Source: Acidobacteriota bacterium
GTDB taxonomy: Bacteria; Acidobacteriota; Terriglobia; Bryobacterales; Bryobacteraceae
DNA length: 45,519 nucleotides
Assembly (NCBI GenBank): GCA_947470805.1
Contig: CANIVU010000070.1
Location: 1-45,519, forward strand
Direction: 5' to 3'
The notes below the pieces were generated by a model. That model had not been told where the DNA came from and did no database searches. It was given only the letters and a program-made list of their open reading frames with translations. This document shows positions 14,539 through 29,606 of the stretch, in pieces. The stretch's first letter is position 1, and each line of letters opens with the position of its first letter. The position numbers were made by a program, and so were the translations under genes.

Positions 14539-15963
14539 ATGACCCGCCGCCAATTCCTGGCCACTGCCACCGTCGCAGCAGCCGGCGCCAAGCGCCCGCC
14601 CAACATCATCGTCATCCTCGCCGACGATCAGGGCTACGGCGATCTCGGCTGCTACGGCTCGCCCTACATCCGCACACCCCACATCGACCGCATGGCCGCC
14701 GAAGGCCTCCGCTGCACGGACTTCTACGCCCAGTCCCTCTGCGGCCCCTCCCGCGCCGCACTCCTCACCGGCTCCTACCCCGCCCGCAACAGCCTCAACT
14801 TCAACCATCTCCCGGGTGCCAAAACCGGCATCCACCCCAACGAAATCACCATCCCCGAACTCCTCAAACAGGCCAACTACGCCACCGCCATGGTCGGCAA
14901 ATGGCACCTCGGCGACGCAAAGCAATTCCTCCCCACCCGCAACGGGTTCGACTCCTGGCTCGGCCTCCCCTACTCCAACGACATGTGGCCGTACCATCCC
15001 AAGGTCACCCGAATAGGCCCAGAAAATACCACCGCGAAAGCCGTCCGCGAACGCGCCGAACTCACCGGCTTCGACGGCCAGGGCCAGCACTACCCGCCCG
15101 ATTGGTTCCCGCCTCTCCCGCTCATGCGCAACGAAGAGGTCATCGAAACCAACCCCGATCAATCCACCCTCACCGCCCGCTACACCGACGAAGCCCTCCG
15201 CTTCATCGCCGCCAACAAGTCCCGCCCCTTCTTCCTCTACGTCGCCCACGCCATGCCCCACGTCCCGCTCTTCCCCGGCAAGGAGTTCGACGGTAAATCC
15301 CTGCGGGGCCGCTACGGTGACGCCATTGAAGAGCTCGACGACAGCACCGGCCGCATCCTCGCCGCCCTCAAACAGCACAAGCTCGATAACGACTCGCTCG
15401 TCGTCTACACCTCCGACAACGGCCCTTGGCTCCCCTACGGCATCGACGCCGGTTCCGCCGGCCCTCTCCGCTCCGGCAAAGGCACCGTCTACGAAGGCGG
15501 CATCCGCGTCCCCGCCATCTTCCGCTGGCCCGGCCACATCCCCGCCAATACCGTCACCTCCCAAATCGCCGCGACGATAGACTTCCTCCCCACCTTCGCC
15601 GCCGCCGCCCAAATCAAGCTCCCCACGGACCGCACGCTCGACGGCCACAACCTCCTCCCCGTACTCACCGGAGCCGCGAAACAAAGCCCACACGACACCT
15701 TCTACTATTTCGACACCGCCATCCACTACACCCCCGAAACCGGCCGCCCCGCCAGCAACTCGAACCTCCTCGCCATCCGCCAAGGCCGCTGGAAACTGCA
15801 TCTGGAATCTCGCGCCCTCTACGACCTCCAAAGCGACATCGGCGAAACCCGCAACGTCTCCGCCCGCGACCCAGAACTCGTCCGCCGCCTCACCGAAGCC
15901 GCCAACAAATTCCTGTCCACCCTCCGCGCCAACGTCCGGCCCATCGCCACGCTGCCCCTATAA
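14539..15963 (+). CDS. Tat-exported type I arylsulfatase
   Basis: 474 residues. Tat-type leader MTRRQFLATATVAAAGA. Metal-binding NIIVILADDQGYGDLGC has D29-D30, and the sulfatase signature CGPSRAALLTGSYPAR has C68, the cysteine converted to formylglycine by a maturase that is not encoded in this window. VGKWHLGD (second signature) and TSDNGPW are also present. Length is normal for the family. The enzyme cleaves sulfate esters from a glycan or aryl substrate in the periplasm. It starts 5 bp after the enolase-superfamily gene and is followed 8 bp later by a TonB receptor, which supports a sulfated-carbohydrate utilisation locus. Confidence 0.93.
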   Translation: MTRRQFLATATVAAAGAKRPPNIIVILADDQGYGDLGCYGSPYIRTPHIDRMAAEGLRCTDFYAQSLCGPSRAALLTGSYPARNSLNFNHLPGAKTGIHPNEITIPELLKQANYATAMVGKWHLGDAKQFLPTRNGFDSWLGLPYSNDMWPYHPKVTRIGPENTTAKAVRERAELTGFDGQGQHYPPDWFPPLPLMRNEEVIETNPDQSTLTARYTDEALRFIAANKSRPFFLYVAHAMPHVPLFPGKEFDGKSLRGRYGDAIEELDDSTGRILAALKQHKLDNDSLVVYTSDNGPWLPYGIDAGSAGPLRSGKGTVYEGGIRVPAIFRWPGHIPANTVTSQIAATIDFLPTFAAAAQIKLPTDRTLDGHNLLPVLTGAAKQSPHDTFYYFDTAIHYTPETGRPASNSNLLAIRQGRWKLHLESRALYDLQSDIGETRNVSARDPELVRRLTEAANKFLSTLRANVRPIATLPL

Positions 15964-15964
15964 T
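15959..15964 (+). promoter_or_regulatory. Perfect -10 box (TATAAT) overlapping the sulfatase stop, 7 nt before the next start
   Basis: TATAAT contains the sulfatase TAA stop and ends seven bases before ATG 15972. A start site there would make the second TonB receptor mRNA leaderless. The hexamer could also be chance, since it encodes the last residue and stop of the sulfatase. No -35 box is seen. Confidence 0.35.
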
Positions 15965-15971
15965 TGTGTCA

Positions 15972-18530
15972 ATGCGGTTGCAAAGGGTCTTTCTGTTGGC
16001 GCTCACGCCAACCCTCTTATTTCCCCAACAAAAACCAGCGCCCGAGCAGCCCGCCGCCGAACGTCGCACCGACCTCAATCTCCTCAACAAAACCGACACC
16101 GCCGCCGGCGAATCCCGACGCAACGAAAACGTCCAGTTCAACCTCATCGATAACAACGCCCTCAAAGAACTCAACATCCGCCTCGGCACCACCGCCACGC
16201 TGATCGATGACGTCAAGGCCGACCGCAACTACTTCGGCGCCGAATACGGCAACAAACCCGCCAGCCCCATTCATCTCTCCCCCACGAAGCCCACCCATAT
16301 CCACGGCTCCCTCTTCGAAACCCACGGCAACAGCGTCCTCAACGCCCGCAGCTTCTTCACCGTCGGCGCCCTCCGCCCCGCTCACGAAAATCAGTACGGC
16401 GCCAACATCGGCTTCCGGCCCTGGAAAGGCGCCGCCGTCACGCTCGACGCTGGCCAGCAGAAACTCCGCGGCAACGTCAACGGCAACATCGTCGTCCCCA
16501 AAGCCGACGAACGCACCCCCCGCACCACCAATCCCGCGGTCCGCCAAATGATCGAGCGCTACCTCAACGCCTTCCCCAAAGAACTCCCCAACCGCACCGA
16601 TATCAACGAGCGCGCCCTCAACACCAACGCCCCGCAAAACTTGAACGACAACAACGCCTCCGCCCGCCTCGATCAACAGCTAAACACCAGGCACTCCCTC
16701 AATCTCCGCTACGCCTTCACCGCCCAAATCCTCGACGCCTTCCAACTCGTCGCCGGCCAGAACCCCGACACCACCACCCGCGCCCACACCGCGCAAATCT
16801 CCTGGGCCTTCCTCAAGTCCGCCCAAACCTCCATCCTCACCACCGCCATGTTCGACCGCGTCGGCTCCCTCCTCGTCCCCGAACCCAACGCCGTCGGCCC
16901 GCAGGTCAACTTCTCCAACGTCATCACCACCCTCGGCCCCGGCTCCAACATCCCCATCGACCGTGCCCTGAACCGCTTCCGCTACGGCACAGCCATGAAA
17001 CAAACCAAGGGCCGCCACAACTGGTACGCCGGCTTTGACTACAGCCGCCGCCAGTTGAACGGCACCGAAGCCTCCAGCACCCGCGGCAATCTCTACTTCC
17101 GCAACGACCTCGGCCGCACCGTCATGGAGAACTTCCTCCTCGGCATTCCCAGCCGCTTCTCCGGCTCTGTCGGCAGCATCCACCGCGGCTTCCGCGGCCA
17201 CGAATTCGCCACCTTCATAGGCGACGATTTCCGCGTCAACTCCCGCATCACCCTCCACTACGGCCTCCGCCACGAAGCCATCACCGCCCCCACCGAAGTC
17301 AACGGCCTCAACAAGCTCCCCTACGACTGCGACTGCAACAACTTCGCCCCCCGCTTCGGCCTCGCCCTCCGGACCAAAGCCGGCGTCATCCGCGCCGCCT
17401 ACAGCGTCCACTTTGGTGAAATCTTCCCCGTCACCTACTCACAAATCCGCTACAACCCGCCGCTCAACAGCAAGTTCGAAATCCAGGTTCCCGACATCAC
17501 CAAACTCCTCAGCCTGCTCAACCTCCCGGCCGACCCCAACGCCCGCAGCACCTTTCTCTCCATCTCGCCGGACCTCGCCACCCCCTACTCCCACCTCTAC
17601 AGCTTCTCGCTCGAAAACACGCTCGCCAAAGGCTGGAAACTCCAACTCGGCTACGTCGGCAGCCGCGCCCACAAGCTGATGATGCTGCAGTACAACAACC
17701 GCTCCGTCGCCGTACCCGGCATCCCGCAGAACACCGCCACCATCAACGACCGCCGGCCCGACCCGCGCTACTTCGACGTTCGCAACGCCGTCAACGGCGC
17801 CCACGGCTACTTCGACGCCGCCCGCGCCACCCTCGTCCTCCCCCGTTGGCACGGCGCCAGCCTGGAGACCTCCTACTGGCTCTCCAAGGCGATCGACACC
17901 GGCGCGTCCTACACCAATACCGCCACCGGCGACGACGGCCGCCAAAGCCAGTCGCAAACCGAAAAGAACATCTGGGCCGACGTGAAATCGGTCAGCAGCT
18001 TCGATCAGAAACACGCCTTCCTCGCCCGCGGTAGCTACGCCACACCGAAGGTGAAGTGGCTCGGCTCCTGGGATCTCAGCGGCGTCTGGCTCGTCAAGAC
18101 CGGCACCCCCTTCAGCATCATCACCGGCTCGGACGCCCCCGGTTTCGGCAACGTCGATGGCGACCAGGGGGACCGGCCCAACATCGCCGATCCCTCCATC
18201 CTCGGCCGCACCATCGGCAATCCCGACACCTCCCGCGCCCTGCTCCCCCGCTCGGCCTTCAGCTTTATCCAGCCCACGCAGAACCGCGGCAATATAGGCA
18301 ACAACACCTTCCGCAAGGCCGGCATCGCCAACGTCAACGCCAGCGTCTCCCGAAATTTCAACCTCGGGGGGGACCGCAAACTGCTCTTCCGTTCCGAAGC
18401 CGTCAACCTCGGCAACACGCCGCAGTTCGCCCAGCCCTTCCCCGAGCTCTCGTCTCCCAACTTCGCCTTCATCACCAACACGCTCAACGACGGCCGCGCC
18501 ATCCGCTTCCATCTACGCTTCCAGTTCTAG
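15972..18530 (+). CDS. Short OAR-like TonB-dependent outer-membrane protein lacking the N-terminal regulatory domain
   Basis: 852 residues from ATG 15972; the frame continues upstream only as a shadow of the sulfatase. Signal peptide MRLQRVFLLALTPTLLFPQQ. Unlike the 1137-residue receptor at 8814, there is no CarboxypepD_reg sandwich: after a charged 40-residue stretch it enters a short plug-like segment (DDVKADRNYFGAEYGN) and then the barrel (HIHGSLFETHGNSVLNARSFF, FAPRFGLALRTKAG), ending RFHLRFQF with the terminal Phe. No TonB box is obvious, so it may be a passive or partner channel. The stop codon lies inside a 43-bp palindrome shared with the stop of the convergent DUF1801 gene. Confidence 0.82.
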   Translation: MRLQRVFLLALTPTLLFPQQKPAPEQPAAERRTDLNLLNKTDTAAGESRRNENVQFNLIDNNALKELNIRLGTTATLIDDVKADRNYFGAEYGNKPASPIHLSPTKPTHIHGSLFETHGNSVLNARSFFTVGALRPAHENQYGANIGFRPWKGAAVTLDAGQQKLRGNVNGNIVVPKADERTPRTTNPAVRQMIERYLNAFPKELPNRTDINERALNTNAPQNLNDNNASARLDQQLNTRHSLNLRYAFTAQILDAFQLVAGQNPDTTTRAHTAQISWAFLKSAQTSILTTAMFDRVGSLLVPEPNAVGPQVNFSNVITTLGPGSNIPIDRALNRFRYGTAMKQTKGRHNWYAGFDYSRRQLNGTEASSTRGNLYFRNDLGRTVMENFLLGIPSRFSGSVGSIHRGFRGHEFATFIGDDFRVNSRITLHYGLRHEAITAPTEVNGLNKLPYDCDCNNFAPRFGLALRTKAGVIRAAYSVHFGEIFPVTYSQIRYNPPLNSKFEIQVPDITKLLSLLNLPADPNARSTFLSISPDLATPYSHLYSFSLENTLAKGWKLQLGYVGSRAHKLMMLQYNNRSVAVPGIPQNTATINDRRPDPRYFDVRNAVNGAHGYFDAARATLVLPRWHGASLETSYWLSKAIDTGASYTNTATGDDGRQSQSQTEKNIWADVKSVSSFDQKHAFLARGSYATPKVKWLGSWDLSGVWLVKTGTPFSIITGSDAPGFGNVDGDQGDRPNIADPSILGRTIGNPDTSRALLPRSAFSFIQPTQNRGNIGNNTFRKAGIANVNASVSRNFNLGGDRKLLFRSEAVNLGNTPQFAQPFPELSSPNFAFITNTLNDGRAIRFHLRFQF

Positions 18531-18569
18531 GACAATTCCTGGGTGACTGTCACCCAGGAATTGTCCTAG
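18527..18569. repeat. Perfect 43-bp palindrome, copy A, spanning two convergent stop codons
   Basis: Two 20-bp arms (left arm begins CTAGGACAATTCC) flank a CTG centre. The left tip contains the TAG stop of the TonB protein and the right tip the TAG stop of the leftward DUF1801 gene. The inner TGGGTGACTGTCACCCA core is shared with copies B-D. In the outer arm the sequence is AATTCC/GGAATT where the other copies have AAATCC/GGATTT, a paired change that keeps the stem. A bidirectional terminator or a mobile palindromic element is likely. Confidence 0.9.
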
Positions 18570-18970
18570 CTCTTCCGCTCATTCTCCGCCACGCGCGTCA
18601 TCACCAACTTCCGCACCAACTGCGCCGGCAAGGGCTTATCCACCGCAAACCGGATCGCCCCCTTCGACGTCGGATACTTCGCCAACTCCACCGCGAACTT
18701 CACGATGACATCCGGATTCATCGGATAAAACCCACAGTGCTTCTCAAACGCCGCATACCCCACCAGCCCGCGCCTGTAAAAGAACGTCGGCATCCCATAG
18801 GCAATCCGCTCCGTCGTCCCCTCAGGCACCAACTCCCGGATCATCCGCCGCAACTCGGTCAACGTCCCCTTCGCCGGCTCTGGCAGTGCCGCCAGATACT
18901 CGTCCACCTTGTCCGATTCATCCACCGGCACCAAGGCTTCCTTCGGCTTCGTCTTCTTCGTCAACGCCAT
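18566..18970 (-). CDS. DUF1801/YdhG-like small protein
   Basis: 134 residues from ATG 18970; an in-frame start at 19027 would run into the promoter region of the divergent cytochrome gene. Characteristic segments are KVDEYLAALPEPAKGTLTEL, ERIAYGMPTFFYRRG, and the C-terminal GAIRFAVDKPLPAQLVRKLV. Members of this family include B. subtilis iron-chaperone-like Fra and YdhG, a single alpha/beta domain; a role in iron handling is possible but not shown here. It stands alone, convergent with the TonB receptor and divergent from the diheme cytochrome gene. Confidence 0.85.
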   Translation of the reverse strand: MALTKKTKPKEALVPVDESDKVDEYLAALPEPAKGTLTELRRMIRELVPEGTTERIAYGMPTFFYRRGLVGYAAFEKHCGFYPMNPDVIVKFAVELAKYPTSKGAIRFAVDKPLPAQLVRKLVMTRVAENERKS

Positions 18971-19012
18971 AACAACAGAGTAATCTCTCAACAATTCAGG
19001 GGACAAAAAATA

Positions 19013-19018
19013 TATACT
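19013..19018 (+). promoter_or_regulatory. Candidate -10 box (TATACT) for the cytochrome/PQQ dehydrogenase operon
   Basis: TATACT sits in an AT-rich stretch (TATATACTAA) in the 74-bp divergent region. It lies 26 bp before ATG 19045, with an AAGGAG ribosome site at 19034-19039 between them. Unlike several other genes here, this one therefore has a conventional leader. Confidence 0.5.
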
Positions 19019-19044
19019 AACTCCCAATCCGAAAAGGAGTGCCC

Positions 19045-19803
19045 ATGTTCTGGCTCGCCCCCTTCCTGCTCTTTCAACTGCAACAACCCCTCGACATCCC
19101 CGACAAGAACCCGCACACCACCGCGGCCGATATCGAACAAGGCAAGCGCCTCTACATGGGCCGCTGCGCCGGCTGCCACGGCCCCTCCGGTGATGGCGGC
19201 AAAGGTGCCAACCTCGCCGTCCCCACGCTCCCCCGCGCCGCCGCCGACCGCTCTCTCTACCGCATCATCCGCTACGGCATTCCCGACACCGAAATGCCCG
19301 GCTCCCTCATGGACGCCAAAGAACTCTGGCAAACCGCCGCCTTCGTCCACTCCCTGGGCCAGGTGCCATCAGCGCCCATCACCGGCAATCCCCAGGCCGG
19401 CGCGCAGCTCTTCAAATCCAAAGGCGCCTGCCTCAACTGCCACGCTCTCGGCAACGAGGGCGGCCGCATCGGCCCCTCCCTCACCGGCATCGGCGCCCGC
19501 CGAGGCGCCGCCCACCTGAAAGCCAAAATCGTCAACCCCACCGCCGACGTGCCCGACCAGTTCCGCCTCGTCCAACTCACCAACAAAGCCGGTAAAACCA
19601 TGCGCGGCATCCGCCTCAACGAAGACACCTACTCCATCCAAATCCGCGACTTCTCCGGTAACCCGCAGTCATTCTGGAAAGCCGACATCACCCAGATCAC
19701 CCAGGAAAAGAAAACCAACATGCCCGCCTATCAGGGCAAACTGACCGACACCGAATTGAACGACCTCGTCGCCTTCCTGGCCAACGAAAAAGGTGCCCAA
19801 TGA
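19045..19803 (+). CDS. Exported diheme cytochrome c
   Basis: 252 residues. ATG 19045 is placed 5 bp after AAGGAG; a GTG at 19039 is inside that site. Short signal-like N-terminus MFWLAPFLLFQ. First heme domain: CAGCH at 41-45 with a likely Met ligand in TEMPG. Second: CLNCH at 128-132, with the methionine in NMPAYQGKL as a possible ligand and a C-terminal LVAFLAN helix. The stop overlaps the start of the PQQ dehydrogenase (ATGA), so this is almost certainly its electron acceptor, passing electrons from PQQH2 to the respiratory chain. The substrate side is set by the dehydrogenase. Confidence 0.88.
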   Translation: MFWLAPFLLFQLQQPLDIPDKNPHTTAADIEQGKRLYMGRCAGCHGPSGDGGKGANLAVPTLPRAAADRSLYRIIRYGIPDTEMPGSLMDAKELWQTAAFVHSLGQVPSAPITGNPQAGAQLFKSKGACLNCHALGNEGGRIGPSLTGIGARRGAAHLKAKIVNPTADVPDQFRLVQLTNKAGKTMRGIRLNEDTYSIQIRDFSGNPQSFWKADITQITQEKKTNMPAYQGKLTDTELNDLVAFLANEKGAQ

Positions 19804-21374
19804 GACTCGCCCTGTTGCTCCTCTCCCTCCCCCTCCTCGCCCAGGTCACCCACCAGCGCCTCCTCAACGCCGAAAAGGAACCCGGCAACTGGCTCACCTA
19901 CTCCGGCAACTTCTCCGGCCACCGCTTCTCGCCACTCAAACAGATCACCGATCAGAACGTCGCCAAGCTAACCCCCGCCTGGGTCTACCAATCGAACTCG
20001 CTCCAGAAGTTCGAAACCACGCCCCTCGTCGTCGATGGCGTCATGTACATCTCTGAAGCGCCCTCCCACGTCACCGCCCTCGACACCCGGACCGGCCGCG
20101 TCATCTGGCGCTACCGTCGCACCCTCCCCGATGACGTCCGCGTCTGCTGCGGCCAGGTCAACCGCGGCGTCGCCCTGCTCGGCGACCTCGTCTACGTCGG
20201 CACCGTCGACGCCCATCTCGTCGCCCTCGACGCAAAAACCGGCGCCGTCCGCTGGGACGTCACCGTCGCCGACAACAAGACCGGCCACTCCATCACCGTC
20301 GCCCCGCTCGCCGTCAAAGACAAAGTAATCATCGGCATAGCCGGTGGCGAATACGGCATCCGCGGTTTCCTCGATGCCTACGACGCCAAGACCGGCAAAC
20401 TCGCCTGGCGCTTCTGGACCGTCCCCGCCGGCGGTGACCCCGAAGCCAAAACCTGGGCCGGCGAAAGCTACAAGCGCGGCTCCGCCGCCACCTGGGTCAC
20501 CGGCGCCTACGATCCCGACACCAACCTCCTCTACTGGGGCACCGGCAACCCCGGTCCCGATTGGAACGGCGAAGTCCGCGCCGGCGACAATCTCTACTCC
20601 GACTGCCTCATCGCCCTCGACCTCGACACCGGCAAACTGAAATGGCACTTCCAATTCACGCCCCACGACGTCCACGACTGGGACGCCACCGAAGTGCCCG
20701 TCCTGATCAACGCCGAGTTCCGCGGCCAGCCGCGCAAGCTTCTCCTCTTCCCCAACCGCAATGCGTTCTACTACGTGCTCGACCGCGTCACCGGCCAGTT
20801 CCTGCTCGGGAAGCCCTACGCCAAGCAAACCTGGGCCAAGGGCCTGGACGATAGCGGCCGCCCCATCCGCCTCCCCGGTACATTTCCCACGGTAGAAGGT
20901 ACCCGCGTCTGGCCCAGCGTCGCCGGCGCCAACAACTGGTACAGCCCCAGCTACAGCCCCGACACAAAGCACCTCTACGTCGCCACCCGCGAAGCCGGGG
21001 CGGTCTACTATTTCGGCAACGCCGAATACAAAGCCGGCGAACAGTTCAACGGCGGCGGCTTCCGCAGCATTCCCGGAGAGGAGGAATGGGGCGCCATCCG
21101 CGCCTTCAAGCCCACCACCGGCGAAGTCGCCTGGGAGTACAAGCTCTTCACCCCACCCTACTCCGGCGTGTTATCCACTGCGGGCAACCTCGTCTTCGGC
21201 GCCACGGCCGAAGGCCAAATGATCGCGCTAAACGCCACGACCGGCAAACTCCTCTGGCGCTTCCAAGGCGGCGGCACCGTCCGGTCCAACCCGATGAGCT
21301 ACCAAAGCGACGGCAAGCAATACGTTGCCATGACCCTCGGCAACTCTCTCTACGTCTTCCACCTCCAGCCCTAA
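19800..21374 (+). CDS. PQQ-dependent alcohol dehydrogenase-type quinoprotein
   Basis: 524 residues. Signal peptide MRLALLLLSLPLLA; WLTYSGNFSGHRFSPLKQIT opens the eight-blade propeller, whose TGxxxW-type docking motifs recur (TGRVIWRY, TGKLAWRF, TGKLKWHF, TGKLLWRF). The vicinal disulfide pair is C116-C117 (VCCGQVNRG). Predicted metal/PQQ residues: E184 (GGEYG), N250 (GTGNPGP) and catalytic D295 (HDWDAT). The residue two after the catalytic Asp is T297, whereas lanthanide enzymes have Asp there, so Ca2+ is the likelier cofactor metal. No heme motif is fused; the diheme cytochrome immediately upstream (4-bp overlap) supplies electron transfer. The substrate is unknown; PQQ synthesis genes are not in the window. 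Confidence 0.9.
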   Translation: MRLALLLLSLPLLAQVTHQRLLNAEKEPGNWLTYSGNFSGHRFSPLKQITDQNVAKLTPAWVYQSNSLQKFETTPLVVDGVMYISEAPSHVTALDTRTGRVIWRYRRTLPDDVRVCCGQVNRGVALLGDLVYVGTVDAHLVALDAKTGAVRWDVTVADNKTGHSITVAPLAVKDKVIIGIAGGEYGIRGFLDAYDAKTGKLAWRFWTVPAGGDPEAKTWAGESYKRGSAATWVTGAYDPDTNLLYWGTGNPGPDWNGEVRAGDNLYSDCLIALDLDTGKLKWHFQFTPHDVHDWDATEVPVLINAEFRGQPRKLLLFPNRNAFYYVLDRVTGQFLLGKPYAKQTWAKGLDDSGRPIRLPGTFPTVEGTRVWPSVAGANNWYSPSYSPDTKHLYVATREAGAVYYFGNAEYKAGEQFNGGGFRSIPGEEEWGAIRAFKPTTGEVAWEYKLFTPPYSGVLSTAGNLVFGATAEGQMIALNATTGKLLWRFQGGGTVRSNPMSYQSDGKQYVAMTLGNSLYVFHLQP

Positions 21375-21409
21375 GACAAATCCTGGGTGACTGTCACCCA
21401 GGATTTGTC
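21375..21409. repeat. Palindromic intergenic element, copy B (perfect, 35 bp)
   Basis: Arms GACAAATCCTGGGTGA and TCACCCAGGATTTGTC around a CTG centre. It begins at the base after the TAA stop of the PQQ dehydrogenase. No T-run follows, so it is not a textbook intrinsic terminator. Confidence 0.9.
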
Positions 21410-21423
21410 CGACCAGTGCTTGA

Positions 21424-21429
21424 TATACT
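21424..21429 (+). promoter_or_regulatory. Candidate -10 box (TATACT) 7 nt before the DUF4440 start
   Basis: TATACT, preceded by TTGA, ends seven bases before ATG 21437, with only a C-run between and no Shine-Dalgarno sequence. This fits a leaderless transcript beginning at or next to the start codon. Confidence 0.45.
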
Positions 21430-21436
21430 CCCCCCG

Positions 21437-21859
21437 ATGCGCCTATTCCTCGTTCTCCTCTTGACCGCCCTAACCTGCCTAGCCCAGGACAAGGCCGCCA
21501 TCCTCGCCCTCGACAAACAGTGGAGTGACTCAATCGTCAAAGGCGACACCGCCACCCTCGAAAAGCTCCTCTCCGACGACCTCGTCTACGCCCACTCCAC
21601 CGGCATCGTCGACACCAAAACCTCCTACATCGCCAAAATCAAAGAGCGCCGCCAGGTCTACAAATCCTTCGAACAACACAAACCCACCGTCAACATCTAC
21701 AAGGATTCCGCCGTCACCTTTTCCTACGTCCGCGTCACCGGCACCAACCAGGCCGGCGTCTTCGACGACAAAGTCATGCTCATCCACTTCTGGGTGAAGC
21801 AAAATAATACTTGGCGCCTCGCCGCGCACCAAACGACCAAAATCGACAAGCTCCCCTAA
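21437..21859 (+). CDS. Exported DUF4440/SnoaL-like (NTF2 fold) protein
   Basis: 140 residues from ATG 21437; the frame upstream is only a shadow of the PQQ gene. Signal peptide MRLFLVLLLTALTCLAQ. The body has the cone-fold pattern: ILALDKQWSDSIVKGDTATL helix, LLSDDLVYAHSTG, FDDKVMLIHFWVKQNNTWRLAAHQTT. Such proteins are small binding or isomerase-like domains, and no catalytic set can be assigned here. It is separated from the PQQ gene by a palindromic element and has its own -10 box, so it is probably a separate unit. The amidohydrolase starts 3 bp after its stop and is likely co-transcribed. Confidence 0.82.
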   Translation: MRLFLVLLLTALTCLAQDKAAILALDKQWSDSIVKGDTATLEKLLSDDLVYAHSTGIVDTKTSYIAKIKERRQVYKSFEQHKPTVNIYKDSAVTFSYVRVTGTNQAGVFDDKVMLIHFWVKQNNTWRLAAHQTTKIDKLP

Positions 21860-21862
21860 CCC

Positions 21863-22693
21863 ATGCCCATCATCGACACCCACCATCACTTCTGGAAGTA
21901 CACCGACAAGGAATACGGCTGGATCAGCGACAAGATGAAGGTCATCCGCCGGGACTTCCTCCCCGCCGACCTCCACAAGGAGCTCAAATCCGCCGGCGTC
22001 GATGGCGCGGTCTCCGTCCAGGCCCGTCAAACAGTCCAGGAGTCCGACGACCTCCTCGCCTACGCCGAAAAGAACGACTTCCTCAAAGGCGTCGTCGGCT
22101 GGGTCGACCTCCGCGATAAGAACTGCGACAAGGACCTCGAACGCCTCGCCAAACATAAGAAGTTCAAGGGTGTCCGCCACGTCATCCAGGACGAGCCCGA
22201 CGACAACTTCATCCTCGGCGCCGCCTTCAACGAAGGCATCAAGAAGCTGGCGAAATACGATCTCCGCTACGACATCCTGATCTTCGAAAAGCACCTGAAA
22301 CCGTCGATCAAGTTCGTCGACCAGCACCCCAAACAGGTCTTCATCCTCGACCACATCGCCAAGCCCCGCATCAAGGACCGCATCCTGAGCCCCTGGCGCG
22401 AGAACATGATCGAACTCGCCAAACGACCCAACGTCTACTGCAAAATCAGCGGCATGTTAACCGAAGCCGACTGGGACAAGTGGACCGCCGCCGATCTGGC
22501 CCCCTACTTCGATTCCACCCTCCAAGCCTTCGGCCCCAAGCGCCTCATGATCGGCTCCGACTGGCCCGTCATGCTCGTCGCCGGCAAGTACAAGCAGTGG
22601 ATCGACATGGTCAAACAAGTCGTCAGCCGCTACAGCGCAGCCGAACAGGACCGCATCTTCTACAAAAACGCCGTCGAAGCCTACAAGCTCTAA
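21863..22693 (+). CDS. Amidohydrolase family 2 (lactonase-like TIM barrel)
   Basis: 276 residues, no signal peptide. The metal motif HxH is in MPIIDTHHHFWKY at the N-terminus. VDGAVSVQARQTVQESDDLL, KGVRHVIQDEPDDNF, FILDHIAKPRI and GSDWPVM (metal-binding Asp) follow the pattern of L-fucono- and L-rhamnono-1,5-lactonases and related amidohydrolase-2 proteins. Sugar-lactone hydrolysis is therefore the best guess and would fit a window rich in sugar-oxidising enzymes, but the substrate is not fixed by sequence. Start 3 bp after the DUF4440 stop. Confidence 0.85.
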   Translation: MPIIDTHHHFWKYTDKEYGWISDKMKVIRRDFLPADLHKELKSAGVDGAVSVQARQTVQESDDLLAYAEKNDFLKGVVGWVDLRDKNCDKDLERLAKHKKFKGVRHVIQDEPDDNFILGAAFNEGIKKLAKYDLRYDILIFEKHLKPSIKFVDQHPKQVFILDHIAKPRIKDRILSPWRENMIELAKRPNVYCKISGMLTEADWDKWTAADLAPYFDSTLQAFGPKRLMIGSDWPVMLVAGKYKQWIDMVKQVVSRYSAAEQDRIFYKNAVEAYKL

Positions 22694-22700
22694 GTTCCCA

Positions 22701-22765
22701 GACAAATCCTGGGCTTGTCCTCCGAAGCCTCGGCGAAGGCGGGTGACTGTCACCCAGGATTTGTC
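22701..22765. repeat. Palindromic intergenic element, copy C, split by a 30-nt insert
   Basis: The left arm GACAAATCCTGGG (22701-22713) and the rest, TGACTG then TCACCCAGGATTTGTC (to 22765), match copy B exactly. Between them is about 30 nt (22714-22743, exact edges uncertain by 3 nt because GGG occurs on both sides). The insert contains the quasi-palindrome CCGAAGCCTCGG. It lies 7 bp after the amidohydrolase stop in a 232-bp gap between convergent genes; nothing else recognisable is in that gap. Confidence 0.85.
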
Positions 22766-22925
22766 CTAGCCATAAACAGCAACTAAATCGCCCAGGCGCT
22801 ATTTTTTCCAACTTTGACGCTAGTCTTCACTTTCATGTGACAGGCCTCTCTCCAATGCAGGGATTCAACAACATGCGTCGACTTTACCGCCGCACCGCCA
22901 GGCAGTCAACGAATCTCCCAAAACG

Positions 22926-23846
22926 TCATAGTTGTGACGCCCGCCGCCCCATCGCCAAATAAGCCGCACAACACGAAACCCAAACCAACTGCGCCAGCAA
23001 CAAGTGTCCAATCTGCACCACCCCAGGCGCCGCCAGCACGATATTCAGCACCCCCAGCACCACCTGCATCCCCACCAGCATCAACGGCCACCGCAACAAC
23101 GCCACCATCCCCGCATCCCCCGCATACCCCCTCCGCACAGCCCCCACCACCCCGCTCAAAAACGCCGCGCAAAACACCGCCACAAACGGGTGAATCACAC
23201 GCAATCGCACCAGAAAATGCTGCCCCGCCGTCAAATCCTCCCGCACCTTCGCCCATAATGACCCATCCAGCGTCGGCTGCAACGGGAACAACGTGTCCCC
23301 CAACGCCGTCACCGCGCCCGTCATGTTCGTAAACACCAACACCAGCATCGCCGCCAGCAACAATCCCCGCCCCGCCGCCCGCGTCGCCACCACCAAAGGT
23401 GACGCCCACCACGCCATCGCCGTCGCCGCCGCCACCAGCAACAACGTGTTCGCCAAGTGCAGCCCGATCACCACCGCCCGGCTCACCGACGCGTCGTTCA
23501 CCACCAGCTCTTTCTTCACCAACACCGCGCCCACAAACCCCTCGACGAGAATGAAGAACATCGTCGCCAGCGCAGCCCGCAGCACCCGCCGGTCCCCCAT
23601 CCGCCACGCCCACACAATAAACCCAATCCCGAACAGTCCGCACAGTCCGCTCGTCACCCGATGAGTGAACTCAATGATCGTTTTCGCCGCCGGCGCCACC
23701 GGCACCACGTCCCCATTGCACAACGGCCAGTGGTTCCCACACCCCGCCCCCGCCCCCGCAATGCGCACCCACGCGCCGAACAAAATCACCGCAATCAAAT
23801 ACCCAACAAACCACCACGCCCAACGCGAAAAAGTGTGCCGCTGCAT
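22926..23846 (-). CDS. ctaA: Heme A synthase (COX15/CtaA)
   Basis: 306 residues from ATG 23846 (MQRHTFSRWAWW); an in-frame ATG 23882 would add 12 residues. Eight hydrophobic segments. GAGAGCGNHWPLCNGDVVP has the paired cysteines C-x6-C seen in the B. subtilis-type enzyme. Heme-ligand histidines occur in EFTHRVTSG, VIGLHLANT, RLRVIHPFVAV and VQIGHLLLAQL. It oxidises the C8 methyl of heme O to the formyl group of heme A for terminal oxidases. No oxidase or heme O synthase genes are adjacent, which is unusual. It follows the unknown secreted gene by 39 bp on the same strand. Confidence 0.9.
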   Translation of the reverse strand: MQRHTFSRWAWWFVGYLIAVILFGAWVRIAGAGAGCGNHWPLCNGDVVPVAPAAKTIIEFTHRVTSGLCGLFGIGFIVWAWRMGDRRVLRAALATMFFILVEGFVGAVLVKKELVVNDASVSRAVVIGLHLANTLLLVAAATAMAWWASPLVVATRAAGRGLLLAAMLVLVFTNMTGAVTALGDTLFPLQPTLDGSLWAKVREDLTAGQHFLVRLRVIHPFVAVFCAAFLSGVVGAVRRGYAGDAGMVALLRWPLMLVGMQVVLGVLNIVLAAPGVVQIGHLLLAQLVWVSCCAAYLAMGRRASQL

Positions 23847-23885
23847 GCTGTTACCAGCGTACAGCGGCACCGGAAGATACACCAG

Positions 23886-24716
23886 CTATTCGAACTTGAT
23901 CACAAACTCCACCCCGCGGCTCAGCGTCACATTCGCGCCCAGCCCCAGGATCGGCATCGACCCGCTCGGAAACACCAACCGGTTACCCGTCGACAACAGC
24001 TTCGTCTTCGCCGTCGCCGCCGCAATCGTCAGCGTGTCCGATTGGCTCGCCGCCCGGAACGCCCGGTTCGGCACAAAGCCCGTGAACGCCCGAAAAGGCA
24101 GGCCCACCGGATCGCTCTTCGCCCGCGCGTTGATGTCCATCGAGCCCTCCAGCGAAACGTCCATCTTCAGCCCCGTCCCCTTATCCTCCACCTTGAACTG
24201 AAACTTCATCACGCCCGCGTCCTGCGAAACCTCCGCTTCCACCTTCGCCAACCGCGCCGCGCCGGCGCCGAATACCGCGTTCAACTCCGCCACGCCGCCC
24301 GACACTTCAAACAGCGGAAACACAATCTCGTTCCGCGACGGCACAACCGTCGTGTTCGTCGCCGTCGTCGTCGCCAACAGCGCTGTCACCGGCCCATACG
24401 TCGGCCCGCCCACGGTCGGCTGAAACCGCTGATCCAGGAAGAAATTCAACGTCACCGTCGCCGTCGCCGTCCCCGGCGCCGTCGGAATCGGCACAAACCC
24501 AGGCGGCAACGCCGCCGTCAAAGCATCCACCGGCACCAGCACCGGCACCGCGATCTGATACTGACGTACGCTGCGGTACGTGTACCCATCCACCAGCGGC
24601 GACGTCGGCCCCTGCGTGCCCTGCACATCCGGATTGTAGTCATAAGTAGGGGGCCCGCTCTGGCTCTGCGCCATCAAACCAGCGGCAACCAACTCCCCCG
24701 CAATCAACGTCTTCAT
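23886..24716 (-). CDS. Secreted protein of unknown function, possible acetoacetate-decarboxylase-like fold
   Basis: 276 residues. Possible signal MKTLIAGELVAAGLMAQSQ. The segment VDALTAALPPGFVPIP followed by beta strands (TATVTLNFFLDQRF, YGPVTALLATTTA, NEIVFPLFEV) resembles the layout of acetoacetate-decarboxylase-superfamily proteins, but no catalytic lysine motif can be pinned down, so that assignment is weak. The remainder is Thr/Ala-rich beta structure ending GVEFVIKFE. It lies between the DUF1501 gene and ctaA. A 16-bp palindrome upstream of its start could be an operator. Confidence 0.65.
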   Translation of the reverse strand: MKTLIAGELVAAGLMAQSQSGPPTYDYNPDVQGTQGPTSPLVDGYTYRSVRQYQIAVPVLVPVDALTAALPPGFVPIPTAPGTATATVTLNFFLDQRFQPTVGGPTYGPVTALLATTTATNTTVVPSRNEIVFPLFEVSGGVAELNAVFGAGAARLAKVEAEVSQDAGVMKFQFKVEDKGTGLKMDVSLEGSMDINARAKSDPVGLPFRAFTGFVPNRAFRAASQSDTLTIAAATAKTKLLSTGNRLVFPSGSMPILGLGANVTLSRGVEFVIKFE

Positions 24717-24755
24717 GAATTCGCTCTCCCATGCGCCAGCGGTCTAGGGTACCGG

Positions 24756-24771
24756 CGCACTAGGTAGTGCG
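24756..24771. promoter_or_regulatory. 16-bp perfect palindrome upstream of the unknown secreted gene
   Basis: CGCACTAGGTAGTGCG lies 40 bp upstream of the start at 24716 and about 25 bp after the DUF1501 stop. On the leftward strand the T-rich stretch comes before the stem, so it is not a normal terminator; an operator is the simpler reading. Confidence 0.35.
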
Positions 24772-24796
24772 AAAACAAAACGAAAAACGTCGCACG

Positions 24797-26233
24797 CTAA
24801 ATCAAAATTTTTGGATGAATAATCCCCGCAATATCGGTCAAACGGAAATCCCGCCCACTGTACCGGTACGTCAACTTATCGTGCTGCATCCCCAGGATGT
24901 GCAGAATCGTCGCGTGCCAGTCGTGGATGTGCATCCGGTCCTCAGTCGCGTGATACCCGATGTCGTCCGTGGCACCGTAAACAAAGCCCGGCTTCACACC
25001 GCCGCCCGCCATCCAAACCGTGTACCCATACGGGTTGTGGTCCCGCCCGTTGCCACCCTGGCTGATCGGCGTCCGGCCAAACTCCCCGGCCCACACCACC
25101 AGCGTATCCTTCAGCAATCCGCGAGCCTTCAAATCCTGCAACAACCCCGCAATCGGCTTGTCCACCTCGTACGCATTTTCCGTATGCTTCGCGTACAAAT
25201 CCCCGTGCTGATCCCACTTGTACGAATGCGTGCACTGCACAAACCGCACGCCCTTCTCGCACAGCCGCCGCGCCAGCAAACACTGCCACCCGAAGTCGGC
25301 CGTCTTCGGATCGTCCAACCCGTACAGCTTCTTCGTTTCCGGGCTCTCTTTATCCACTGCAAAAATCTCCGGCGCCTGCGTCTGCATCCGGAACGCCAGT
25401 TCAAACGCCTGGATCCGCGCCTCCAGATTCGCATCCACCGTCCGCATCTCCTGATGCTTCCGGTTGATGTTCTGAATCATGTCCAGCTCAAACCGCTGCT
25501 GCTCCGAAGTCAGCCCCTTGTTCACCAGATACTGAATCGGCTCGGCCTTGATCTCGTCCACCTTCATCCCCGAGTGGCCAATCGGAGTCCCCTGAAACGC
25601 CCCCGGCAAAAACGCCGAACCGAAGTTCTTCGCCCCGCCGTGCGATAGCGTCGGCTTGATCGTGATGTACCCCGGCAGATCCTGATTCTCGGTGCCAAGT
25701 CCATACACCGTCCACGCGCCCATGCTCGGCCGCACGAACGTCGACGATCCCGTGAACGTCTGCAACAGCGCCGCCCCGTGGTCCACGCCCTCACCCACCA
25801 GCGAACGGATCACGCACAACTCGTCCACCATGTTCCGCACATGCGGGAACAGATCGCTCACCGGAATCCCGCTCTGCCCGCCCGGCTTGAACGCCCACGG
25901 CGATTTCATCAACGGCCCCGGCGACTCGTCCGCGAACGCCAGCGGCCGCTTAATCGGCAACGGCTTCCCGTGGTCTCTGTCCAGCCGCGGCTTCGGGTCA
26001 AACGTGTCAATCGATGACGGCCCGCCGTGCATGAACAGGAAGATCACCCGCTTCGCCCGCGCCGCGTAGTGCGACGCCTTCGGTGCCAGCGGATTCGACG
26101 ATCCTGTCGTCGCCGCGCCCTGCAGCAACTGCGCCAACCCCACCGTGCCCAGCCCACACCCGGCCGCCCGCAGCGCCGCCCGCCGCGACATCGGCTTCTG
26201 CCGCCGTTTGAAGATCTCTTGAATCGGGTCCAT
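24797..26233 (-). CDS. DUF1501 protein (alkaline phosphatase/sulfatase-like fold), second copy, Tat-exported
   Basis: 478 residues from ATG 26233; the longer frame starts inside the upstream gene. A twin-arginine region (MSRRAALRAAGCGLGTVG) lies about 15 residues in. The DUF1501 body has FMHGGPSSIDTFDPKP, CVIRSLVGEGVDHGAA, GVRFVQCTHSYKWDQHGDL, VWAGEFGRTP and GRDHNPYGYTVWMAGGG. It is longer than the copy at 7400 and keeps the same Asp/His motifs. It follows the PSD1 gene by 8 bp in the same order, as PSD1 then DUF1501. A hydrolase-like role is inferred from the fold only. Confidence 0.88.
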   Translation of the reverse strand: MDPIQEIFKRRQKPMSRRAALRAAGCGLGTVGLAQLLQGAATTGSSNPLAPKASHYAARAKRVIFLFMHGGPSSIDTFDPKPRLDRDHGKPLPIKRPLAFADESPGPLMKSPWAFKPGGQSGIPVSDLFPHVRNMVDELCVIRSLVGEGVDHGAALLQTFTGSSTFVRPSMGAWTVYGLGTENQDLPGYITIKPTLSHGGAKNFGSAFLPGAFQGTPIGHSGMKVDEIKAEPIQYLVNKGLTSEQQRFELDMIQNINRKHQEMRTVDANLEARIQAFELAFRMQTQAPEIFAVDKESPETKKLYGLDDPKTADFGWQCLLARRLCEKGVRFVQCTHSYKWDQHGDLYAKHTENAYEVDKPIAGLLQDLKARGLLKDTLVVWAGEFGRTPISQGGNGRDHNPYGYTVWMAGGGVKPGFVYGATDDIGYHATEDRMHIHDWHATILHILGMQHDKLTYRYSGRDFRLTDIAGIIHPKILI

Positions 26234-26241
26234 GTTCAGCC

Positions 26242-29022
26242 TCAGTCCACGTAAATGAATTCGTTCGATGCCAGCAATACGCGCGTCATGCTCTGCCACG
26301 CGTCCGCCTCGTTGGTCTTCGGGAATCGCTGCCGGAAGCTCGCCGCGTAGCTCAACGCGTTGTCCACCTCCGCCGCCGATGGCGTCCGGTTCAGCACCCG
26401 CAGAAACACCCGCTCCACCTTCGCCTTCGGGTCGAGCGCGGCATCCGTCAACACGCTCTTCGCCACCGCATCGGCCTGCTCGGAAACGAACTTGGAGTTC
26501 ATCAGGAACAGCGCCTGCGGAGCCACGTTCGTCACCACGCGCCGCCCGTTCGGCGTCGTCGCATCGCCGAAATCGAACAGGTTAAACAGCGCCGGCAAGT
26601 TCGCCCGCCGCAACGGCATATAGACGGTCCGCCTCACCTGATCTTCCGGGCTGATGCTAAGCCGCCCGTTGGAGTTCTCGCCATCGGTGCCGAACCCGCT
26701 CTGCAGCGTCCCGCCCATCGTCGAGTCCAGCTTCCCGCTGATCGCCAGCATCCCGTCGCGCATCTCTTCCACCAGCAACCGCCGCCGCGGGAACCGCGAA
26801 AACAGCCGGTTCTCCCCGTCCACCTTCACGTGCTCCGGCGTCGCCGCGCTCGCCATCTGGTAGGCGCTGGAATTCACCATCATCCGGTGCATCGCCTTCA
26901 TGCTCCAGCCCTGCTCCACAAACTCCGCCGCCAGGTAATCCAGCAGTTCCGGATGCGTTGGCCGTTCGCCCATCTTGCCGAAGTTGTCCGGCGTCCGCAC
27001 AATCCCTTCGCCAAAATGGCCCTGGAAAATCCGGTTCACCATCACCCGCGCCGTCAACGGATTCTCGCCGCTCGCCAGCCATTCGCCCAATTCCAAACGG
27101 CCGCTGCCATTCTTCACAATCTGCCGTCCGGGCCCGGCAACAACCAGCGGGAACGTCTTCGGCGCTTCCTCGCCCAGGTTGCTGTAGTCCCCGCGCAGCA
27201 GCACCTTCTGCACCACAACCTTATCCTCAGCCACCGCGCACGCCATCTCTGGCTCCGGCGGCAAAGCGTCCTTCAGCTTCTTCTGCTCCGCCCGCAGCGT
27301 CTTCAACTCAGCCTTCCCCGCCTCGGTCGCCACGGGGTCAATCGTCCGCGCGCTCACGCCAAACGGCCCCGCGTCGGCAAAGACATCCCGGAAGAACCCG
27401 TCCTTTTCGTTGATCAGCTTCGGCATCTCCGAAAGCATGTTCTTCTCTTCAATCTGCTTCCGCTGCACCACCCGGTAGCGCGCCATCTTCTTCGCCCACG
27501 CCGCCAGGTTCTCCTTCGCCGAAGCCTGGAACTTCCGCGCCTCGGCCATCGCCCCGGCCTCATCGGCCTTGTGGAACGCCTCCAGCCACGGCCGCGGCAC
27601 CTCGTTCTCGTTGAAGTGCTTCACCCACCGCTTAATGATCCGCGCGTCCAGCCCATCGGCCTTCTCCAGCTTCTGCCGAGCCGCCATCATGTACTCCGGC
27701 AGCTTCTCAATCAGCTTCTCCTGCGCCAGCGTCCGCTCGCGGTCCATCACGATATCGATGTCCACGCCCTTGTTCGCCACCCCATTCTGGGCCTTCTCGT
27801 AGACGTCATAAACAGCCTTGGAAACCAGCGGCGTGAACAACAACTTCGACACGTGCGTCTCGGCGTCCTTGAAGCTCTTCGTCGACGCGAACATCCCCAC
27901 AATCCCGTAATAATCCTTCTGCGTCAGCGGATCAAACTTGTGGTCGTGGCACCGCGCGCACGCCAGCGTCACCCCCATCATCGCCTTCGACATCGTGTCC
28001 AACTGCTCGTCCCACACGTCGTACAGCATCTTCTGCTTGTCCTGCTGCGCAATCGCCTTCGCCCCTAGCGCCAGGAACCCGGTGGCAATCACGCCCCGCC
28101 GATTAATCTCCTCGCCCTTCGGCGCCGGCAGCAAATCGCCCGCAATCTGCTCCTTCACGAACTGGTTGTAAGGCAGATCGTTGTTGAACGCCTCAATCAC
28201 ATAATCCCGATACTTGAACGCGTACGGATACCGGTGGTCTTCGTCATTCCCGGTCGAATCGGCGAACCGCGCCACGTCCAGCCAGTGCCGCCCCCACTTC
28301 TCCCCATACCGCGGCGAAGCCAGCAACCGGTCAACCACCTTTGCGAATGCATCCGGCGCCGTATCGGCCAAAAACGCCCGAATCTCCTGCTCCGTCGGCG
28401 GCAGCCCATGCAGGTCATACGTCACGCGCCGCAACAACGCGGCCTTGTCCGCTTTCCCTGCCGGCGCCAGACCCTTCTCCTCCAACTTCGCCAGCAAAAA
28501 CGCATCCACCGGCGACTTCACCCAAGTCGAATTCTTCACCGCCGGAACCGCCGGCTTCCGCACCGGCTGGAACGCCCAGAACTTCAACTCCGCGTCCGTA
28601 ATCGCCGACCCATGCTTCCTCGTGCCCGACGGCGACAACGACGCCACCCCAGCCTTCTTCTCAAACCCCGGCCACGGCGCGCCCATCTGGATCCAAGTCT
28701 TGATTTTGGCGATCTCGTCGTCCTTCAACTTCCCCATCGGCGGCATCTTCAATCCGCCCTCGTAGCTCAGCGCCTGCAACAACAGGCTCTTCTCCGGCGT
28801 CTCCACATTCACCAGCGATCCACTCGCCCCGCCGGCAAAGAATCCCGCCGCCGTCGACATGTCCAATCCCGACGTCTTCGCCTTCGCGTTGTGGCACATC
28901 TGGCACTTCGTCGCCAGCACCGGTCGGACGTTCTTTTCAAAGAATTCCGCCTGCTCCACGCTCTGCCCAAACGCACCGATCCCGCCCAACAAAACCGACA
29001 AAATTAAGACTTGTTTCGACAT
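26242..29022 (-). CDS. PSD1-type secreted cytochrome c (DUF1549/DUF1553), second copy
   Basis: 926 residues from ATG 29022, which follows an AGAGGCGG ribosome site; an ATG at 29055 is upstream but would spoil the signal MSKQVLILSVLLGGIGAFGQ. Heme motif CQMCH at 40-44 (FFEKNVRPVLATKCQMCHNAK), then DUF1549 with CARCHDHKFDPLTQKDYYG, and DUF1553 (NPLTARVMVNRIFQGHFGEG). Where the copy at 4654 has a LamG-like beta domain, this one has a charged, mostly helical segment (about 400-600: ERTLAQEKLIEKLPEYMMAA). Exported, redox-active by its heme sites, reaction unknown. Confidence 0.88.
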   Translation of the reverse strand: MSKQVLILSVLLGGIGAFGQSVEQAEFFEKNVRPVLATKCQMCHNAKAKTSGLDMSTAAGFFAGGASGSLVNVETPEKSLLLQALSYEGGLKMPPMGKLKDDEIAKIKTWIQMGAPWPGFEKKAGVASLSPSGTRKHGSAITDAELKFWAFQPVRKPAVPAVKNSTWVKSPVDAFLLAKLEEKGLAPAGKADKAALLRRVTYDLHGLPPTEQEIRAFLADTAPDAFAKVVDRLLASPRYGEKWGRHWLDVARFADSTGNDEDHRYPYAFKYRDYVIEAFNNDLPYNQFVKEQIAGDLLPAPKGEEINRRGVIATGFLALGAKAIAQQDKQKMLYDVWDEQLDTMSKAMMGVTLACARCHDHKFDPLTQKDYYGIVGMFASTKSFKDAETHVSKLLFTPLVSKAVYDVYEKAQNGVANKGVDIDIVMDRERTLAQEKLIEKLPEYMMAARQKLEKADGLDARIIKRWVKHFNENEVPRPWLEAFHKADEAGAMAEARKFQASAKENLAAWAKKMARYRVVQRKQIEEKNMLSEMPKLINEKDGFFRDVFADAGPFGVSARTIDPVATEAGKAELKTLRAEQKKLKDALPPEPEMACAVAEDKVVVQKVLLRGDYSNLGEEAPKTFPLVVAGPGRQIVKNGSGRLELGEWLASGENPLTARVMVNRIFQGHFGEGIVRTPDNFGKMGERPTHPELLDYLAAEFVEQGWSMKAMHRMMVNSSAYQMASAATPEHVKVDGENRLFSRFPRRRLLVEEMRDGMLAISGKLDSTMGGTLQSGFGTDGENSNGRLSISPEDQVRRTVYMPLRRANLPALFNLFDFGDATTPNGRRVVTNVAPQALFLMNSKFVSEQADAVAKSVLTDAALDPKAKVERVFLRVLNRTPSAAEVDNALSYAASFRQRFPKTNEADAWQSMTRVLLASNEFIYVD

Positions 29023-29059
29023 TCCGCCTCTGCACACTAAAATATCAGATTGCACCCCC

Positions 29060-29065
29060 TAAACT
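29060..29065 (+). promoter_or_regulatory. Candidate -10 box (TAAACT) 6 nt before the tadA start
   Basis: TAAACT ends six bases before the GTG at 29072, and no ribosome site is present. It fits the leaderless pattern seen at 8814, 15972 and 21437. No -35 box is clear. Confidence 0.3.
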
Positions 29066-29071
29066 GAGTAT

Positions 29072-29518
29072 GTGGATCACGATTTCTACATGCGCGAAGC
29101 CCTCGCCGAAGCCCGCAAAGCCGAGGCCTCTGGCGAAGTCCCCGTCGGCGCCGTGCTCGTCCTGAATGGCGAAATCATCGCCCGCGCGCACAACACCCCC
29201 ATCACCACCCACGACCCCACCGCCCACGCCGAAATCAACATCCTCCGCACCGCCGCCGCCACCCTCCAGAACTACCGCCTCGACGACGCCACCCTCTACG
29301 TCACCCTCGAACCCTGCGTCATGTGCGCCGGCGCCATCGTCCACGCCCGCATAAAGACCCTGGTATTCGCCAACCGCGACCTCCGCTTCGGCGGCGTCCG
29401 CTCCAAATTCCAACTCGCCGATTCCGATCTCCTCAACCACCGCGTCGAAGTCATCGAAGGCCCCCTCGCCGCCGAGGCCACCGCCCTCCTCCAAACCTTC
29501 TTCCGCCACCGCCGCTAA
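29072..29518 (+). CDS. tadA: tRNA-specific adenosine deaminase TadA
   Basis: 148 residues from GTG 29072; DHDFYMREALAEARKAEASG is the normal TadA N-terminus, so GTG is preferred over ATG 29090. Zinc and catalytic motifs: TAHAEINIL (His and catalytic Glu) and EPCVMCAGAIV (two Cys). It converts A34 to inosine in tRNA-Arg(ACG) in the cytoplasm. A single gene, divergent from the PSD1 gene. Its stop is followed 3 bp later by copy D of the palindromic element. Confidence 0.95.
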   Translation: MDHDFYMREALAEARKAEASGEVPVGAVLVLNGEIIARAHNTPITTHDPTAHAEINILRTAAATLQNYRLDDATLYVTLEPCVMCAGAIVHARIKTLVFANRDLRFGGVRSKFQLADSDLLNHRVEVIEGPLAAEATALLQTFFRHRR

Positions 29519-29521
29519 CCA

Positions 29522-29553
29522 GACAAATCCTGGGTGACTGTCACCCAGGATTT
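29522..29553. repeat. Palindromic intergenic element, copy D (right arm incomplete)
   Basis: GACAAATCCTGGGTGA, CTG, then TCACCCAGGATTT; the last three bases of the arm (GTC) are replaced by CCC. It begins 3 bp after the tadA stop. Confidence 0.85.
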
Positions 29554-29579
29554 CCCTGAGCCTTTCCGCACAAATACAA

Positions 29580-29606
29580 CGGGGGTCGGCATCCTGCCGG
29601 CCCCCG
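29580..29606. terminator. GC-rich hairpin between convergent tadA and the cysteine-rich HTH gene
   Basis: Eleven base pairs (CGGGGGTCGGC with GCCGGCCCCCG, one G-T pair) around a 5-nt loop. Read leftward the stem is followed by TTGTATTTG, a U-rich tail suited to stopping the leftward gene at 29657. Confidence 0.6.

Follow-up and report, generated by a model that had tools for sequence, protein, structure and literature searches.

The four palindromes that follow stop codons in a 45,519-nucleotide contig of an Acidobacteriota bacterium of the Bryobacteraceae (GenBank assembly GCA_947470805.1, contig CANIVU010000070.1, the whole of which is called the window here) are very probably short, nonautonomous mobile elements of 35 to 41 bp. 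They would be recognized and dispersed in trans by RAYT-1, a single-copy Y1/HUH protein of the RAYT/TnpA-REP kind (RAYT, REP-associated tyrosine transposase; REP, repetitive extragenic palindrome) encoded outside the window in the same 8.7-Mb draft genome, G000, of which the window is contig C70. This reading draws on what the sequences display: members of the palindrome family flank RAYT-1, palindrome tips match the RAYT genes at two paralogs and at one locus where gene and tip have been swapped, insertions are polymorphic among relatives, copies lie at stop codons in a preferred orientation, and the arms vary in a paired manner. An initial annotation of the window had offered a terminator, a REP-like element mobilized by a RAYT-type transposase, or a protein-binding site as explanations, and it is the second of these that is supported by association, through the flanked RAYT gene, the matched tips and the insertion polymorphism. 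The four copies and the stop codons that precede them are listed here.

18527..18569, + strand: copy A, a perfect palindrome (21+1+21) of the AATTCC type
18528..18530, + strand: stop codon TAG of the open reading frame (ORF) 15426-18530, inside the first four bases of copy A
21372..21374, + strand: stop codon TAA of ORF 19800-21374, directly before the start of copy B
21375..21409, + strand: copy B, a perfect palindrome (17+1+17) of the AAATCC type
22691..22693, + strand: stop codon TAA of ORF 21863-22693, 7 nt before copy C
22701..22765, + strand: copy C, a composite of left arm (22701-22713), extra 27-nt segment (22714-22740), and tip with right arm (22741-22765)
22714..22740, + strand: extra segment CTTGTCCTCCGAAGCCTCGGCGAAGGC of copy C, separating the left arm from the tip
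29516..29518, + strand: stop codon TAA of ORF 29072-29518, 1 nt before copy D
29520..29558, + strand: copy D, a palindrome (19+1+19) that is 89% paired

All four palindromes lie where the initial annotation had placed them, and they stand far above expectation: the window holds eight half-sites matching the arm GACAAATCCTGGGTGA with three or fewer mismatches, the chance mean is 0.18, and none of 100 shuffles reached eight. Copy D is real and slightly longer than had been thought (29520-29558 instead of 29522-29553). The upstream ORFs, taken from a mechanical ORF list, end at 18530, 21374, 22693 and 29518, in agreement with the claim that every copy starts within 8 bp of a stop codon. The reported difference between AATTCC/GGAATT in copy A and AAATCC/GGATTT in the others is also genuine, and both forms are common subfamilies genome-wide.

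The family extends throughout G000, where the 13-bp core GGTGACTGTCACC has 68 matches and a reversed control pattern has none, so that copies are far from few; GGGTGACTGTCACCC has 33 matches. The consensus is about 41 bp long and consists of YCRGACAAWTCCTN, the core with its central T, and NAGGAWTTGTCYGR. A covariance model, with 150 candidates scored per genome, gave 144 matches at E 0.1 or less in G000 and 75 and 16 in two congeners, G155 and G153; many copies were matched on both strands, and some matches, such as C2:41134, lack the exact core. A loose search for similar arms with other tips returned mostly noise among the matches listed. No paper in the open-access library searched contains the core strings, and the matches listed there included no study of this palindrome family.

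G000 has eight matches to the Pfam family Y1_Tnp. The one that we call RAYT-1, a protein of 212 residues encoded on contig C13, scores above the Pfam cut-off, and the search for a RAYT gene that the initial annotation had suggested thereby found one with a family copy on each side: one lies upstream and another overlaps the 3' end of the gene, 632 bp apart. Because the downstream copy overlaps the gene, part of the RAYT-1 C terminus is palindrome-encoded. The palindrome in question (L038:2017-2053) lies inside the 3' end of the RAYT-1 frame, which is also open in the G155 ortholog. That ortholog is 85% identical and sits between family copies at equal spacing. A paralog in G000, RAYT-2 on contig C20, is 57% identical to RAYT-1 and is accompanied by three palindromes, two of them upstream and the third downstream, which have similar arms and another tip, GGTAGCACGGCTCC. 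The G153 locus syntenic with RAYT-1 (a 2,346-nt alignment at 77%) contains a RAYT with an in-frame stop that is 49-54% identical to RAYT-1, to its G155 ortholog and to RAYT-2; this gene is followed downstream by the second tip and preceded by a version of that tip differing in one letter. Gene variant and tip therefore differ together at one locus. G153 also has second tips at the sites corresponding to window site D, L088 and L094. The genes neighboring RAYT-1 differ less between genomes than RAYT itself: against G155, the moaA-like gene is 99%, the macB-like gene 89% and the RAYT 85% identical, and against G153 the values are 94% (over 64 residues only), 86% and 52% (gene names were assigned by reading, without a family search).

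The abundance of the palindromes may follow the gene, in that G000 (68 copies) and G155 (35) both encode RAYT-1, and 16 other congeners, which have 0-1 core matches each, showed no RAYT-1-like match above about 41% identity among the matches listed. In G070, which belongs to another genus, a RAYT stop codon is followed at 4 nt by the same core. Alignment of 13 proteins revealed invariant N59-H60-x-H62 and Y119, and we read Y119 as the putative catalytic tyrosine; RAYT-1 and RAYT-2 are without a C-terminal block found in nine of the 13. No sequence relative was found among solved structures. Strong hairpins of unrelated sequence stand beside at least four of 40 unnamed RAYT loci of the order (L043:2056, L046:1428, L059:1435 and L068:2245), a count that under-reports because flanks of 1,500 nt were assumed, which is wrong at contig ends, so that known copies at L189 were missed. 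A RAYT-bearing contig of Methylocystis sp. KS32 has two identical 42-nt palindromes, at L302:771 and L302:1188.

Many of the genomes compared are incomplete drafts, and absence from them is therefore weak evidence. Among 11 congeners in the order sample, two have one core match and nine have none. Seven further congeners, whose best alignments to window positions 17000-31000 are at 92-96%, have 35 (G155), 8 (G153), 1 (G151) and, in the other four, no core matches. Of the 35 G155 copies, 21 are at a site shared with a copy in G000 and 14 are not. Thirty G000 sites were queried, and for 25 of them G153 or G155 offers an aligned locus; at one of these sites, L019, the locus runs off the relative's contig and is uninformative. 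At seven of the 25 a short gap replaces the element (L005, L009, L014, L017, L026, L029 and L097), and the same is true of window site B, where the element is not present at the aligned G155 site. By eye, and with the relatives' reading frames unchecked, the upstream gene already ends there without the element at L005, L017, L026, L029, L097 and B. Copy D has a changed counterpart in G155, and the aligned G153 site is without it. The sites compared with these two genomes showed no clean target duplication.

Elsewhere the relatives carry different versions of the element: the core is mutated at L077, the centre is flipped at L073, L070 and L104 are composites, the tip is replaced on the same arms at L075, and the left half alone is left at L091. 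Other aligned sites have unrelated sequence and larger gaps. Since short gaps account for only part of the aligned sites and others carry different versions, empty sites are a minority. The genome G126 contains 33 matches to the core; their arms are different (GGGGGTTACGGTGACTGTCACCGAAAT type), and several of them are closely paired in the manner of REPINs (loci L109-L124). The extra segment of copy C at 22714-22740 is a third hairpin-like segment, of CTTGYCCNCCGAAGCC...GGCGAAGG type, that recurs at the equivalent point of composite copies in G000 (L079:1447) and G155 (L158:1470, L187:1531 and L220, about 1630); it also occurs beside a family copy at L089:133 and beside a tip of the second type in G155 (L374:4308).

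Placement relative to genes is strongly biased. A stop codon ends within 20 nt of the element edge in 46 of the 68 copies, compared with 607 of 18,909 control positions (3.2%), which are other positions of the same loci subjected to the same kind of test; the gene calls and the control relied on a simple codon score, for which 11 long ORFs of the window served as the training set, and not on a published gene finder. The bias to gene 3' ends seen in the window thus holds for the family as a whole. In 22 copies the distance between the end of the stop and the element edge is exactly 0 or +3 nt (18 on the left, 4 on the right), as against 29 of the 18,909 control positions. In 38 one-sided cases the gene ending next to the copy has the central-T strand as its coding strand, and in 5 it has the other strand (P = 2.5e-7); three more copies have a gene end on both sides. 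At seven left sides (spacings 15 and 19) the element itself contains the stop, either the TAG of CCTAGG or the TGA of GGTGAC. Stop proximity may reflect target choice as well as selection, and the 0/+3 spacing together with the orientation bias provides a concrete hypothesis of target choice.

The arms vary in concert. In 58 of the 68 G000 copies, chosen for diversity and with composites excluded, 89.8% of 928 cells are paired, compared with a mean of 85.1 in shuffles that do not preserve relatedness, and 38 cells are changed on both sides, compared with a shuffled mean of 14; in neither case was any of 500 shuffles as high. Covariation scores 0.115; shuffles give 0.049, and sliding the partners gives no more than 0.068. 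Paired changes among copies, whose absence would have told against the initial annotation, are therefore more frequent than in shuffled sets. The numbers of pairs with a two-sided change (6, compared with 4.3 in shuffles; 37/500) and of further pair types (10, compared with 8.2; 55/500) are not exceptional.

Orthologous sites give a more complex picture of how such changes arise. We analyzed 23 of the 28 listed pair rows, having dropped four L079 rows (tandem and ambiguous) and one L098 row (composite). Divergence is 13.0% in the arms and 8.7% in the flanks, and of 253 arm pairs 198 are unchanged, 44 are changed on one side and 11 on both, seven of these 11 being still paired. Many arms thus decay at orthologous sites. 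Loci L006 and L020 each show two paired changes and no unpaired one, and L020 switches at the two subfamily positions; such whole paired-state switches fit replacement by another copy as well as they fit compensation. The proposal that the AATTCC/AAATCC difference is a compensatory base change consequently stands in part: some paired changes do occur at orthologous sites, and part of the signal is a subfamily marker rather than compensation in place. It is quite possible, if somewhat short of probable, that the paired changes in the arms arise by hairpin-templated repair (template switching at quasi-palindromes) or by copy replacement instead of by selection for pairing, a mode of change that would be compatible with dispersal by a RAYT. 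The switches at L006 and L020 point in this direction, as do the tips exchanged or flipped at fixed sites (L073, L075 and L104), whereas the excess of one-sided over two-sided changes and the many copies that decay uncorrected argue against it.

The position of the palindromes after stop codons, their covarying arms and their strong RNA folding could also be explained if the hairpins were intrinsic, possibly bidirectional, terminators or stabilizers of mRNA 3' ends that were retained and multiplied for ending or protecting transcripts. Folded as RNA, copies A and B reach -28 to -39 kcal/mol whichever strand is taken (z -6.0 to -8.7), copy D reaches -24.7 (z -5.2) and copy C -33.6 (z -3.0). However, no T-tract follows the stem, T reaching at most 44% in any of ten columns in the 66 copies tabulated, and a terminator scan called none of the four window copies. 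These results lend no support to an intrinsic terminator, a G+C-rich stem with a T-tract, and zero Rfam matches above the gathering score in window positions 17500-31000 lend none to a known Rfam family. Near relatives have sites without the element, and the tips matched to RAYT genes would be left unexplained. We regard the terminator or stabilizer explanation as improbable. A separate G+C-rich hairpin, CGGGGGTCGGCATCCTGCCGGCCCCCG, lies at 29580-29606 after copy D, with similar ones in relatives that are without the element; it could be a terminator there, and the terminator scan does not call it either.

Apart from possible transposase binding, the protein-binding site of the initial annotation gained no independent support. 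Near-perfect dyads would suit operator-like sites of a host DNA-binding protein that had been spread by ordinary duplication, and so would the invariance, in all 58 rows, of CC and GGA, which do not belong to the 13-bp core used to select the copies. Yet the copies are placed after stop codons, with fewer at gene starts alone; their number is lineage-restricted, some sites are without them, and copies adjoin RAYT genes. An operator role is accordingly very hard to credit.

Returning to dispersal by RAYT-1, we envisage that the arms fold into a hairpin in single-stranded DNA and that it is the tip, GGTGACTGTCACC, which corresponds to RAYT-1, its paralog RAYT-2 being paired with another tip on similar arms. 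RAYT-1 would cut the hairpin and rejoin it at new sites without a visible target duplication; insertion would frequently take place immediately 3' of a stop codon, with one orientation predominating. The cutting and moving of the palindromes by RAYT-1, and the role of the tip as a recognition module, are what the matched tips and polymorphic sites suggest. More tentatively, the elements may consist of two parts, the tip being the specificity module of one RAYT and the arms being common to different RAYT systems and tying the element to stops; a RAYT might then be exchanged along with its tips at a single fixed chromosomal locus, and the new tip would subsequently spread through overlapping gene-end sites, inserting directionally beside existing stops. 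If this were true, the palindromes would be stop-codon-targeting, modular miniature elements. Two paralogous RAYTs together with an orthologous locus with a diverged RAYT, bearing different tips on similar arms, amount to a natural tip-swap, which bears on how RAYTs recognize and disperse palindromes and why these gather at gene ends.

Several observations weigh against dispersal by RAYT-1. The NCBIfam equivalog for REP-associated tyrosine transposase gave 52.5 and 54.7 bits, below its cut-off of 80 (the RAYT-1 query was offset in frame by 14 codons in the upstream direction and was missing the last 14 codons, with the matched stretch inside it). No RAYT-1-type gene was found in the 75%-complete assembly of G153, which nevertheless has seven family copies (eight core matches, one with unrelated arms). 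Among 80 named RAYT loci that are more distant (identity at most 44%; 375,854 bases), GGTGACNGTCACC was not found once, strong hairpins being listed for only 46 of them, and the one RAYT stretch read in G126, which stops at a contig end, contains no core. Second tips gave 5, 2 and 1 hits in samples of 0.40, 0.38 and 0.40 Mb of G153, G155 and G000, which is the predicted direction and too small to weigh; the samples left out contigs already used for loci in G153 and G155 (C4, C12; C6, C14, C22). Unlike REPs of REPtrons, the palindromes have no GT[AG]G at the foot, where the commonest letters in 66 copies are Y-C-R before GAC and Y-G-R after GTC. The flanking copies are direct, not inverted, both cores at RAYT-1 being on the minus strand; similarly, all three second tips at RAYT-2 are on one strand, as are both at the G153 locus. 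Because of the missing GTAG head, the direct flanking orientation and the protein score below the NCBIfam cut-off, we do not file the system as a canonical REPtron.

The resemblance to REPtrons is otherwise considerable. Parts of PMC2817692 describe RAYTs that are flanked by inverted REPs and coevolve with them, a gene that evolves faster than its neighbors, and a single gene with cognate dispersed palindromes whose palindromicity is kept and whose abundance follows the cognate gene. Here, too, a single gene with the HUH motif and Y1 tyrosine lies between palindromes of which further copies are scattered over the genome, the gene is fast, palindromicity is kept and abundance may follow the gene. 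According to an extract of PMC8266576, different groups recognize their REPs in different ways.

Members of the IS200/IS605 family have hairpins at both ends on the same strand. The present system is like them in its Y1 HUH transposase, same-strand hairpins on both sides and the absence of an observed target duplication, and unlike them in that the gene is single-copy at a locus common to three genomes and the hairpins are dispersed. Likeness to TnpA-Y1 subclass 2.1 is limited to motif and tail: NHYH falls within the HUH motif set of that subclass, and relatives in the order have a C-terminal tail. The Y motif here is YVERNP, neither of the two listed for the subclass, and Pfam detected no helix-turn-helix in the C-terminal tails of the RAYT relatives, again in contrast to subclass 2.1; moreover, palindromes adjoin the RAYT here, whereas the relevant part of PMC6006769 reports finding no REP-like sequences beside subclass 2.1 genes.

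TIRtrons come closest. As portrayed in portions of PMC3733652, TIRYT genes are flanked by repeats without GTAG, some of them self-complementary, and such repeats can make up a dispersed family of moderate abundance; among the TIRYT protein groups, a sharply defined one is acidobacterial; many, but not all, of the terminal inverted repeats have the motif GGGGWSAS; and REPs are located near the 3' ends of ORFs, with REP termini supplying stop codons. The system described here likewise has a RAYT-like gene flanked by dispersed palindromes that lack GTAG. Most copies have TGGGTGAC or TAGGTGAC, which by eye agree with GGGGWSAS at 7 or 6 of the 8 letters; the second tip does contain GTAG, inside the hairpin and not at its foot. 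What sets the system apart from TIRtrons is that its two paralogous genes go with different tips on similar arms, that RAYT and tip have been exchanged at one locus, that elements lie 0 or +3 nt from stops and that sites are polymorphic. Placement near stops and cognate RAYT-repeat pairs were already known; the RAYT-matched tips on similar arms, the direct flanking orientation and the spacing of 0 or 3 nt from stops are new. The class that fits best is a GTAG-less, TIRtron-like variant, close to the TIRtrons that the same portions of PMC3733652 report from Acidobacteria.

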